Positions 21,799 to 24,789 of a DNA stretch of 64,000 nt are shown here, piece by piece. The DNA is from Aristaeella lactis (GTDB lineage: Bacteria; Bacillota; Clostridia; Christensenellales; Aristaeellaceae), in the NCBI RefSeq assembly GCF_018118585.1, contig NZ_CP069421.1, forward strand, positions 558,001 through 622,000, read 5' to 3'. The notes beneath the pieces are model-generated. The model worked only from the letters and a program-made list of their open reading frames with translations. It did not search any database and was not told the DNA's origin. How positions within the stretch are numbered: the first letter of the stretch is position 1; every line of letters starts with the position of its first letter. The position numbers were made by a program, and so were the translations under genes.

Positions 21799-23175
21799 AT
21801 GGATTATGATGTGCTGATCATCGGGGCAGGCCCGGGAGGCATTTTTACAGCTTATGAACTGACGGAAAAGGCGGAAAAACCGCTGAAAGCCGCTGTGTTT
21901 GAGTTGGGCAGGGAACTGAGCAAACGCAAATGCCCTATCGACGGGGAAAAAGTCAAATCTTGCGTACGCTGCAAGACCTGCTCGATCATGAGCGGCTTTG
22001 GCGGCGCAGGCGCCTTCTCCGACGGCAAATACAACATCACCAACGATTTCGGCGGAAGCCTGCATGAACACGTGGGCAAGGGCCGGGCGCTGGATCTGAT
22101 GCGCTATGTGGATGAGATCAACCTGAAATACGGTGGGGAGGGGACTAAACTTTACTCCACCGCAAACACCTCCATCCGCAAAACCTGCCTGCAGAACGGC
22201 CTGCACCTGCTGGACGCGCAGGTGCGCCATCTGGGAACCGATATTAACTATGTGGTTCTGGACAACCTGTACAATGAGCTGAAGGAGAAGGTGGACTTCT
22301 TCTTTGAAACAGCTGTGGCGTCCGTTACCCGGGAGGGAGAAGGATACCGGGTTACCCTGGAAGACGGAAAAAGCTATACGGCACCGTGCTGCGTAATTTC
22401 CGTCGGACGGAGCGGCAGCAAGTGGATGGAAGGCGTATGCCGGGATATGGGCATTCCCACCAAGAGCAACCGCGTGGATATCGGCGTGCGGGTGGAACTG
22501 CCTGCCCAGGTATTCAGCCACCTGACGGATGAACTGTATGAAAGCAAGATCGTGTACCGGACAGAGAAGTTTGAGGATCTGGTCAGGACCTTCTGCATGA
22601 ATCCGCACGGCGCTGTTGTCAGCGAGAACACCAACGGAATCGTGACGGTGAACGGACACAGCTATGAGGATCCGGCCAAGCATACGGACAATACCAATTT
22701 CGCACTGCTGGTCAGCAAACATTTCTCCGAGCCCTTCAAGGATTCCAATGGCTACGGTGAGTCCATCGCCCGGCTGAGCAACATGCTGGGCGGCGGCGTT
22801 ATCGTACAGCGCTTCGGAGATCTGGTGCGGGGGCGGAGAAGCACGCCCGGCAGGATCGCTGATTCCTTTGTGACGCCCACCCTGGCGGCAACGCCCGGCG
22901 ATCTGAGCCTGGTGATCCCGAAACGGATCCTGGACGGCATTATTGAAATGATCTACGCCCTGGACAAGATCGCACCCGGTACGGCGAATGACGATACCCT
23001 GCTGTACGGTGTTGAGGTCAAGTTCTACAACATGGAAGTCGAACTGGATGAGAACCTGGAGACAGCCTATCCGGGCCTGTATGTGATCGGCGACGGCAGC
23101 GGCGTGACGCACAGCCTGTCCCACGCCAGCGCCAGCGGAGTACATGTGGCGAGGAGAATATTGCAGAATCTTTGA
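21799..23175 (+). CDS. FAD-dependent oxidoreductase of the COG2509 type
   Basis: The 458-residue protein starts with the Rossmann FAD motif DVLIIGAGPGGIFTAYEL. A four-Cys segment follows, CPIDGEKVKSCVRCKTC (about residues 46-62), then FGGAGAFSDGKYN. A C-terminal region contains GLYVIGDGSGVTHSLSHASASGVHVARR, the second FAD-binding motif. This matches an uncharacterised dehydrogenase family (COG2509). The electron partner and substrate are unknown. The gene is followed, with no gene between, by a multi-hairpin repeat region. Confidence 0.88.
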   Translation: MDYDVLIIGAGPGGIFTAYELTEKAEKPLKAAVFELGRELSKRKCPIDGEKVKSCVRCKTCSIMSGFGGAGAFSDGKYNITNDFGGSLHEHVGKGRALDLMRYVDEINLKYGGEGTKLYSTANTSIRKTCLQNGLHLLDAQVRHLGTDINYVVLDNLYNELKEKVDFFFETAVASVTREGEGYRVTLEDGKSYTAPCCVISVGRSGSKWMEGVCRDMGIPTKSNRVDIGVRVELPAQVFSHLTDELYESKIVYRTEKFEDLVRTFCMNPHGAVVSENTNGIVTVNGHSYEDPAKHTDNTNFALLVSKHFSEPFKDSNGYGESIARLSNMLGGGVIVQRFGDLVRGRRSTPGRIADSFVTPTLAATPGDLSLVIPKRILDGIIEMIYALDKIAPGTANDDTLLYGVEVKFYNMEVELDENLETAYPGLYVIGDGSGVTHSLSHASASGVHVARRILQNL

Positions 23176-23195
23176 GGATTATGCAATATTCTCCA

Positions 23196-23392
23196 GTGAA
23201 ATGTTGACTTCGTAAACGAAGTCAACGTGAAATATTTGACTGCGTCAAATGTGAAATATTGAACGATCGAAACCGCGGCCGGCAAAGCGTAAACGCTTCC
23301 AGCCGCGGTTTTTCCGTTCAATGTGAAATATTGAGCAAAAGCCATCGGAAAAGCTAAAGCTTTCGATGGCTTTTTATGCTCAATGTGATAGT
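23196..23392 (+). repeat. Array of four hairpins with a constant GTGAAATATT linker
   Basis: Linkers at 23196-23205 (GTGAAATGTT), 23227-23236, 23251-23260 and 23323-23332 (all GTGAAATATT), and a partial GTGATAGTT at 23385, separate four unrelated hairpins. Hairpin 1 is 10 bp (GTTGACTTCG, loop TAAA, 23203-23226). Hairpin 2 is 7 bp (ATTTGAC/GTCAAAT, 23234-23250). Hairpin 3 has an ATTGAACG/CGTTCAAT base (23258-23322) and an inner AACCGCGGC/GCCGCGGTT. Hairpin 4 has an ATTGAGCA/TGCTCAAT base (23330-23384) with an inner AAAAGCCATCG/CGATGGCTTTT. Hairpins 3 and 4 each contain a GC-rich stem followed by a T run and could also act as terminators. Confidence 0.85.
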
Positions 23393-23454
23393 TACTCCTG
23401 ACCAGTGACCGTAAGTTGTTTACTTCTGCCGGGGTGTGTAGTCAGAGACGGAGG

Positions 23455-24624
23455 TTATAAGGAAACGAGTTTTTCTGTGAAAGGGAGCGTGTCGGGAAGG
23501 CGGCAGCACTGGGCCCAGAGGCACCAGGCGGCCAGGTCGGCCGGGTCAGCGGTGTTTTTCCATTCCGCGAAGGAAGAAATGACAGGAATGGAAAGGGATT
23601 TCCAGAGGGAAGTCATTTCCGGGTTTTTCCGGAGACCGAGCAGAAGCGCGTGATCCGGAAGGGGCAAGGTGTCCAGCTTTTCCTTTGTGAGCCCCAGAAG
23701 GGCACAGGCGCAAAGACGGCTGATGCGGGCCGCAGGATAGCGTCTGCCGGAAAGGGCAGAGATCAGTTCACGGCGGGTGTTCGAAACGGAAGCGGCATTG
23801 CGAAGCGCGTTTTCCATTCCTTCAGAGAGATCCGGAAGGGAACTGTATTCCGTGTCGGACATGGAACGCAGGCGGGAAAGCAGGAGGCTGTCCAGAATAT
23901 GTTCGTCCGGAATCCGGCCTTCCAGGAAACGGGAGCGAAGGATCTGCATGGTGTATTCCGGTACAGCCTGATAAGCAGGGGTGTAGCTGCCCTGAAGCAG
24001 GTATTCCCGAAGGGCTGAAGCAGAGGGGGATTCCGGATCGACCGCCGCGGCATGATAATTCCCCTTGCGGGGTATGATGACGGAAGAAAGGGAAAGGTTC
24101 AGGCGGCGAACCGCCCGGAGATAACAGACAGCCAGCGTGTTGTTGGGACGGTCCAGAAGACCGTTCGCTTCCGGAAGCACGGAAGAAAGCGCGGCGGAGA
24201 AAGCGGCGGGATAGCCGATGCCTGCTGACAGACCCTCTTTCAGCGCGGCTTCAAAAGCCGGGGGCGGGGATTCCAGCAGATCAGCGGCGCGGCCCAGAAG
24301 CGCTTCATCCGGAGTTTCCGCGCCGAAAGCCAGGTGGGTCGCACCCAGCCGGGCCAGCAGGGATACAGCGCCAAGGGCATAATGCTCCGCGTCCCGGACA
24401 GTCCAGGCTGCCGGCAGGGAGAAGACAGCATCCGCGCCGGCTTCCAGCGCGCAGCGAGCCCGGTCAGAGGGAGAAAGAAGCGACAGCTCTCCGCGCTGTT
24501 TGACACAGGGAGAGAGAACGACAAAGACCAGATCAGGCGAGAGGAGGCGCTTTGCCTCCGTGATATGATACAGGTGTCCGCGGTGGAAAGGATCGTATTC
24601 AGCCACGATGCCGAGAATCTTCAC
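23455..24624 (-). CDS. tmcAL: tRNA(Met) cytidine acetate ligase, TmcAL-like
   Basis: TmcAL makes N4-acetylcytidine at the wobble base of elongator tRNA-Met using acetate and ATP. The 389-residue protein has the nucleotidyltransferase motif ILGIVAEYDPFHRGH and the following VVLSPCVKQRG and GADAVFSLP segments, with typical length. I chose the GTG at 24624, which has AAGGGG eight bases upstream, over a GTG at 24633 that overlaps that ribosome site. Acetate kinase is encoded divergently next door, an intriguing metabolic neighbour since both use acetate. Confidence 0.9.
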   Translation of the reverse strand: MKILGIVAEYDPFHRGHLYHITEAKRLLSPDLVFVVLSPCVKQRGELSLLSPSDRARCALEAGADAVFSLPAAWTVRDAEHYALGAVSLLARLGATHLAFGAETPDEALLGRAADLLESPPPAFEAALKEGLSAGIGYPAAFSAALSSVLPEANGLLDRPNNTLAVCYLRAVRRLNLSLSSVIIPRKGNYHAAAVDPESPSASALREYLLQGSYTPAYQAVPEYTMQILRSRFLEGRIPDEHILDSLLLSRLRSMSDTEYSSLPDLSEGMENALRNAASVSNTRRELISALSGRRYPAARISRLCACALLGLTKEKLDTLPLPDHALLLGLRKNPEMTSLWKSLSIPVISSFAEWKNTADPADLAAWCLWAQCCRLPDTLPFTEKLVSL

Positions 24625-24789
24625 GCGAAACACCCCTTTCAGTCAATTAACAATGAACAATTAACAATGAACAATTGGAATTTCAATGCTTATAACAGTT
24701 TGAGTGTAGCATTTTAGGTCTTTATTTTCAAGCAAAAGAGGAGTATAATTATTTGTAGCATTTTATTAAGAGAAGGAGTTCGAAACGAA
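24625..24789. other. Intergenic region tmcAL-ackA with AACAATG repeats
   Basis: The gap of 165 bases holds a tandem AACAATGAACAATTA tract (about 24645-24676) and an ackA promoter candidate further on. No gene is visible. Confidence 0.65.
24721..24749 (+). promoter_or_regulatory. ackA: Putative promoter of ackA
   Basis: TTTATT (24721-24726), 17 bases, TATAAT (24744-24749). The -10 is perfect, the -35 is weak. The start codon is about 40 bases downstream, behind AAGGAG. Confidence 0.55.

Follow-up and report, generated by a model that had tools for sequence, protein, structure and literature searches.

A four-hairpin element dispersed through Aristaeella lactis belongs to the Gut-1 (RF01706) family and may be a folded DNA repeat rather than a structured RNA

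Integron attC sites are recognized by their structure on one strand, and d(cGNNAg) is known as a stable DNA tetraloop. DNA minihairpins closed by loops of the GNA type are very stable (Yoshizawa 1997, referred to in a passage of PMC6479982), and the early promoters of N4-type phages are single-stranded DNA hairpins of 4-5 bp with 3-nt loops that are read by protein, according to the relevant passages of PMC3715699. A larger group of intergenic palindromes comprises the REP and REPIN sequences, which are described in sections of PMC3733652 and PMC6006769 (see also PMC3116915) as short, present in tens of copies, and in some cases arranged in tail-to-tail pairs. At the foot of a family-specific stem, REPs carry a GTAG or CGTC tag (parts of PMC3733652 and PMC6006769). 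The family to which the element considered here belongs, Gut-1, was published in 2010 as a candidate RNA and is listed as "human gut only" in the portion of that report concerned with it (Weinberg; PMC2864571). A search of the literature, supplements aside, found RF01706, the Rfam entry for Gut-1, mentioned only in PMC2864571 and the phrase "gut-1 RNA" nowhere.

The locus compared with these systems lies in a window of 64,000 nt, the whole stretch of DNA analyzed, from Aristaeella lactis. A preliminary description had placed GTGAAATRTT at 23196, 23227, 23251, and 23323 and had reported that each copy introduces a different hairpin downstream of a coding gene. The positions are right, and four copies compare with 0.32 expected, a number that none of 100 shuffles reaches. 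Each of the four sites indeed leads into a hairpin (H1 to H4), the stems are unrelated, the linker and the pairing rule stay constant while the stems differ, and the placement behind a gene holds. The observation is thus confirmed, and its interpretation is partly supported.

All parts of the array lie on the plus strand. The upstream gene in the list of open reading frames (21799..23175, plus strand), assigned to COG2509 in the preliminary description, specifies 458 aa ending in VHVARRILQNL*. A hairpin that had been overlooked, H0 (23153..23194), takes its 5' arm from the final codons of this gene. H0 is an inverted repeat whose 18-nt arms are 94% complementary and whose 6-nt spacer, the loop, holds the TGA stop codon (23173-23175). 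The sequence then reads as linker 1 (GTGAAAT, 23196..23202), H1 (GTTGACTTCGTAAACGAAGTCAAC, 23203..23226), linker 2 (GTGAAAT, 23227..23233), H2 (ATTTGACTGCGTCAAAT, 23234..23250, with a triloop that is TGC on the plus strand and GCA on the minus strand), linker 3 (GTGAAAT, 23251..23257), H3 (23258..23322), linker 4 (GTGAAAT, 23323..23329), and H4 (23330..23384), the hairpins being defined by sequence and folds. In H3 the outer stem ATTGAAC/GTTCAAT encloses a terminator-like inner hairpin with A and T tracts, and in H4 the outer stem ATTGAGCA/TGCTCAAT encloses a second terminator-like hairpin. The copy, which spans 23153-23396 from H0 onward, closes with a tail that had also been missed, GTGATAGTTACT (23385..23396), whose conservation emerges from letter counts over 111 elements. 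A convergent gene follows on the minus strand (23455..24633, from the open reading frame list and coding-score gene calls).

Of two further details in the preliminary description, one is right and one needs revision. Closure by ATT pairing with AAT is found for H2, H3, and H4, in agreement with the three of four stated there, and H1 is closed by GTT/AAC. Steady growth of the hairpins from 7 to about 25 bp is not seen, since H1 has about 10 bp and H2 has 7 bp. H3 and H4 are long because each contains an inner stem with a T tract behind it, and these inner hairpins make the window copy longer than the roughly 120 nt of the element elsewhere. Judged by sequence, the inner stem and T tract of H3 and H4 look like terminators, and a simple terminator scan lists neither.

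The window copy is one of dozens of copies of a dispersed element of about 120 nt in Aristaeella lactis. The sequence GTGAAATATT occurs 104 times in this genome versus 5 times for the reversed pattern, and AATGTGAAATATT occurs 31 times versus 0; the thought that the linker might occur only at this locus therefore fails. The unit consists of four 7-nt linkers, mostly (A/G)TGAAAT, each leading a different hairpin, followed by a tail near the one given above. Stretches of four genomes of the genus contain 133 distinct elements, of which 108 have exactly four hairpins; none of these 108 uses the same stem twice. When own-genome duplicates are included the set comprises 154 elements, among which the first linker is mostly ATGAAAT (104/154), and later linkers are mostly GTGAAAT (358/470, with 63 ATGAAAT and 33 ATGAATT). 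The stems vary, with 149 of 186, 98 of 115, 100 of 114, and 81 of 92 being distinct in four genomes. At 56 loci of the own genome, the window copy among them, neighboring linkers delimit 144 segments, and 136 of these form end-to-end pairing with at least 80% Watson-Crick pairs, compared with 0.3% for shuffles. These loci were not selected for pairing, whereas an element entered the multi-genome set only if it had the linker pattern and two or more palindromic segments, which makes pairing in that set conditional. The earlier suggestion of an expandable element finds weak backing, because the unit mostly holds four hairpins, though losses of a hairpin between linkers are seen (G022_48 compared with G001).

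The family to which this element belongs is Gut-1 (RF01706), and the element is therefore already described. By score alone the window copy falls outside, at 26.7 bits under a gathering score of 50, and the 64-kb window yields zero RF01706 matches at gathering. Across the own genome there are 61 matches at E 0.01, some of them overlapping, of which 22 exceed the cut-off of 50. The RF01706 consensus is three hairpins joined by GUGAAAU linkers, an arrangement that the window alignment and the element survey both reproduce. In the window alignment the third model hairpin lands on part of linker 3 and H3, and from this the model appears to cover three hairpins plus the start of a fourth. For a four-hairpin unit, the model with its 77 positions thus seems too short.

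Matches to RF01706 are unevenly spread. They are present in 7 of 41 genomes of the genus (four with 48 to 59 matches, two with 15 and 13, and one with a single match), in 60 of 248 genomes and 40 of 115 genera of the order (E 1e-4, own genome included), and in 4 of 398 genomes of a phylum sample (E 1e-6, own genome included). Control genomes of E. coli and Bacteroides give weak matches below the cut-off at E 0.01 and none at E 1e-4. A two-linker pattern recovered at least 114 loci from a genome collection, with taxonomy taken from record labels, one of which is Ectothiorhodospiraceae; the 80 named matches listed are mostly Clostridia assemblies, many of them from ruminant gut. The guess that similar clusters may be spread in Clostridia is borne out, both across the genome and in related gut Clostridia. 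Compared with Gut-1 as published, the element described here is multi-copy, sits mostly just after genes, occurs also in assemblies labeled as ruminant gut, and has pairing and loops that do not look selected in RNA.

Placement relative to genes was read from coding-score gene calls. Among 113 placed elements, 79 come after a same-strand gene, and in 70 of these 79 the stop codon lies between -20 and +60 nt from the first linker, at a median of 17 nt. By the same gene calls the other 34 elements lack a preceding same-strand gene, and just 27 of the 113 combine a same-strand upstream gene with a convergent downstream gene as in the window. Short intergenic palindromes in tens of copies, with some tail-to-tail pairs, recall the REP and REPIN sequences as presented in the sources cited for them above. 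Unlike REPs, which keep a conserved stem plus tag, the element has a constant linker, GTGAAAT, and varying stems. From N4-type promoters and integron attC sites it differs in both sequence and arrangement.

We consider it somewhat probable, on the evidence of loops, pairing, and turnover, that the element is a REP-like DNA repeat whose antisense strand works as folded single-stranded DNA and is handled by a structure-reading enzyme. This reading is preferred because it best joins near-constant spacers, a fixed hairpin count, a conserved tail, strand-specific loops, and replacement in blocks. In such a scheme the antisense strand, when single-stranded or extruded by supercoiling, would form four hairpins whose loops are GNA or GNNA, and ATTTCAC would stay single-stranded as a spacer between them. 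At these spacers a structure-reading protein might then bind, or cut and join, and such cutting and joining could create new copies at gene ends and swap modules between copies. That the loops reflect DNA folding in the cell, and that exchange reflects the work of an enzyme, is what we infer.

The loop motifs are strand-specific. From 502 distinct hairpins in the union of the four genus genomes and the collection loci, 488 could be parsed. Among 287 triloops, TNC is found on the sense strand in 171 and GNA in 5, which places GNA on the antisense strand, and the closing pair is C-G in 264. Among 171 tetraloops, cGNNAg occurs on the antisense strand in 82 and on the sense strand in 2, and UNCG occurs once. 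Control terminators behave differently, with a modal loop of 4 nt (141/342), TNC in 5 of 68 triloops, and UNCG on the top strand in 10 and on the bottom strand in 3 of the 141 tetraloops.

Energy models are equivocal on the question of strand. With DNA parameters, the bottom strand is predicted to be the more stable for single hairpins in 89 versus 31 of 324, and RNA parameters also favor it (80 versus 30). For whole elements, DNA parameters make the top strand more often the stabler (81 versus 44 of 133). In test hairpins these DNA parameters give the GNA triloop no bonus.

Pairing offers a second means to distinguish DNA from RNA. In the distinct array hairpins of the union there are 3467 Watson-Crick, 11 G-T, and 28 A-C pairs, counted in hairpins with at least 80% Watson-Crick pairing (316 of 326 from the genus and 193 of 208 from the collection), a filter that is symmetric for G-T and A-C. 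Control terminators, drawn from all fetched stretches of at least 4 kb with the collection loci included and scored alike, have 3235, 85, and 45, and the difference from the arrays is significant (Fisher p 8e-5). The excess of A-C over G-T is by itself modest (28:11, p 0.009), and a few of those hairpins are related. Taken separately, the ratio of G-T to A-C is 7:19 in the genus and 4:9 in the collection; union counts are used because the two sets are not independent: 3 of 114 collection loci overlap stretches taken from the genus, and 32 of the 208 collection hairpins recur in the genus set.

These measurements bear on the rival account in which the element is a structured RNA, as published for Gut-1, or a device of the 3' UTR. 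The sense transcript would then form the four hairpins, and a protein with a role in stability or termination would attach to the GUGAAAU linkers. Much about the locus fits that proposal. Sense RNA of 23146-23400 folds at -122.8 kcal/mol versus a shuffled mean of -59.9 (z -14.4), and an antisense DNA fold of the stretch also beats shuffles (z -11.7). The arrays are usually in sense orientation right behind a stop codon, the family matches an Rfam RNA entry, and the T tracts of the window's H3 and H4, which look like parts of working terminators, would suit an RNA role and count against the DNA reading. These two hairpins resemble intrinsic terminators in stem and T tract, whereas the loops and pairs of arrays are unlike those of terminators in the fetched stretches, and among the array hairpins listed most have no T tract. 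An alignment of 22 own-genome units gives a covariation score of 0.632 against a shuffled mean of 0.141, with 98.1% paired; two of five measures (pairs with two-sided change and further pair types) do not rise above shuffles, which also counts against the DNA reading. However, 39 of 154 cells in this alignment show two-sided changes and zero show one-sided changes, G-T is rarer than A-C, which is the opposite of terminators, triloops dominate and UNCG is nearly absent, and a same-strand gene is missing ahead of 34 of 113 elements. Compared with the terminator controls, then, the sequences carry neither the wobble-tolerant covariation nor the RNA-type loops that would be expected of Gut-1 as an RNA, and we regard a sense RNA as unlikely. 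The preliminary notion of a tandem RNA domain shares this fate: it fits the published Gut-1 RNA, but the wobble-pair and loop tests oppose selection as sense RNA.

Covariation is one of the main arguments for calling structured RNAs. Paired changes with almost no wobble, together with DNA-like loops on the opposite strand, mean that covariation alone would mislead here. Counting G-T against A-C and asking which strand carries the stable loops is a simple test that could be applied to other candidate RNA families. Gut-1 itself may really be a dispersed DNA repeat, and if the element is DNA-borne it suggests that gut bacteria of a large group have a system that reads hairpins where genes end.

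A neutral origin must also be weighed, in which the arrays are palindromic debris kept perfect by template-switch correction, with GNA loops prevalent because they seed hairpins and with neither enzyme nor function. Near-perfect Watson-Crick pairing and the mostly paired changes between paralogous units speak for it. In alignable orthologous hairpins of G001, G022, and G035 (three overlapping comparisons summed), 19 pairs changed on two sides and 18 on one side, the latter comprising 3 G-T, 5 A-C, and 10 other changes with the innermost pairs near loops counted. One-sided steps therefore do occur; they count against the DNA reading and, like the losses between linkers, suit neutral debris.

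Inverted copies of gene ends fit the same proposal, and they also belong to the evidence for the DNA reading. A strong H0 is present in 38 of 133 elements but in 3 of 665 shuffled controls; in 27 elements it encloses the stop codon, and H0 pairs include 3 G-T versus 10 A-C. For one orthologous gene (G000_12, G035_72, and G022_37), the coding ends differ, and inspection by eye indicates that the 3' arm of each H0 matches the coding end of its own genome, apart from a single mismatch in G022. At another orthologous site (locus A) the protein end YSRSN is conserved, two codons are recoded, and the H0 3' arm, again by eye, follows. On the DNA reading, an arm that is an inverted copy of the gene's own end may have arisen at the junction, through fold-back synthesis or a switch of template. 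Yet the linkers are near constant while stems change, four hairpins recur in 108 of 133 elements, and the tail is conserved, features that chance decay would lose; neutral debris is thus a distinctly improbable account. That the bottom strand is instead transcribed, for example when a convergent gene has its 3' UTR there, and selected as an antisense RNA with GNA- or GNNA-loop hairpins is likewise improbable, for although the loop and mismatch biases both point to that strand and RNA parameters favor it for single hairpins, its GNNA loops are GNRA in 40 of 82 and so show no purine preference, its G-U pairs number 28 of about 3,500 versus 85 of 3,399 in terminators, and only the 27 of 113 elements noted above have the convergent arrangement.

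The REP-like DNA reading can be taken further. Gut-1 "RNA" could be a new mobile or regulatory element of folded single-stranded DNA, with four perfect hairpins, antisense GNA or GNNA loops, and a 7-nt spacer recognized by an enzyme, whose arrays are built at gene ends by fold-back synthesis. Construction of this kind would make the stems anew in each copy and leave spacers, count, and loops unchanged. We put this fuller version forward tentatively and think it rather doubtful as a whole.

Comparison of relatives reveals how the arrays turn over. In orthologous arrays of G001, G022, and G035 the hairpins are mostly identical, and sometimes single hairpins or whole arrays have been exchanged in place. 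One case is G022_37 compared with G035_72, in which all four hairpins and H0 differ and the flanks are 98% identical. For the replaced array of G022, the nearest paralogues match over 39 nt at 100% and over 83 nt at 81% in G022, and over 83 nt at 84% in G035. At the window's own locus, G004 has a related array, G001, G022, and G035 have another array with other stems, and G007 has none. Three sites have a GTGAAAT array in one genome opposite an ATGATAT array in another. Faithful recent copying was rejected, as the most alike sampled arrays within a genome are 0.84 to 0.91 identical and none are identical. The proposal of a mobile element accordingly has indirect backing from presence, absence, and replacement at orthologous sites, and no clean empty site was seen among the array-bearing versus array-less orthologous sites listed. 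Several array-less sites in G001, G022, and G035 carry a hairpin preceded by a repeat that is rich in A/T and close to ACTTAAAACTGAAAACTTAAAAATGGCGGA.

Against the DNA reading stand the 34 of 113 elements that lack a preceding same-strand gene and the fact that neither a clean empty site nor a partner enzyme was found; a Y1 transposase and a reverse transcriptase are not supported. PF01797, the Y1 domain, matches in 25 of 41 genus genomes, 19 of which have no Gut-1 match, and G004, which is 70% complete, carries arrays and has no PF01797 match. None of 20 Y1 genes has three or more linkers in a flank (700-900 nt from the match). Of six element-rich genomes, five (G000, G001, G007, G022, and G035) have 0 matches to RVT_1 (E 0.001), and G004 has 4. 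Carriage by phages was rejected as well, since a search of a viral collection with one exact two-linker pattern returned only 4 stretches.

Several other candidates were set aside. A GTAA/TTAC outer stem closing a five-way junction was dropped when its ends, by eye, revealed no convincing covariation, and likeness of the linker to half a Rex operator or an extended -10 promoter is resemblance only. A link to replication strand does not fit, because Bac_DnaA matches in G000 at 1.31 Mb (the strongest) and 1.01 Mb do not correspond to switches of element strand. The strongest match (G000:C1:1306829-1307311) has no switch of array orientation there.

The Y1 genes have repeats of their own. These genes, of about 250-330 aa (L264-L267 in the own genome and L268-L283 in relatives), are accompanied by inverted repeats with GGGACGG or close variants, the version differing per gene; such repeats lie on both sides of 16 of 20 and on one side of 4 of 20. 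They resemble the TIR-associated class named in a passage of PMC6006769.

A sister family of arrays has (A/G)TGATAT linkers and the same hairpin style, with 39 distinct hairpins and TNC in 24 of 30 triloops. ATGATAT arrays of this family (L053, G035 locus D, and G022 locus B) occupy positions at which a GTGAAAT array is present in a relative. Beside or inside arrays there is also a different repeat, close to GGAGATCCTTCGACTGCGCTCC...GCTCAGGATGACA (L041, L043, L073, L076, and locus E of G022 and G035). The stretch ahead of the array at L238:18766 has no Rfam match at gathering. This stretch (L238:18450-18790) is kept in G022 and G035 and ends in a terminator-like hairpin, plus an array in the own genome and G035. 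Finally, 6 of 8 array pairs closer than 400 nt are tail-to-tail neighbors. These short-spaced pairs come from about three loci (G022.3, G035.2, G035.4, and G001.5) and recall REPIN doublets.
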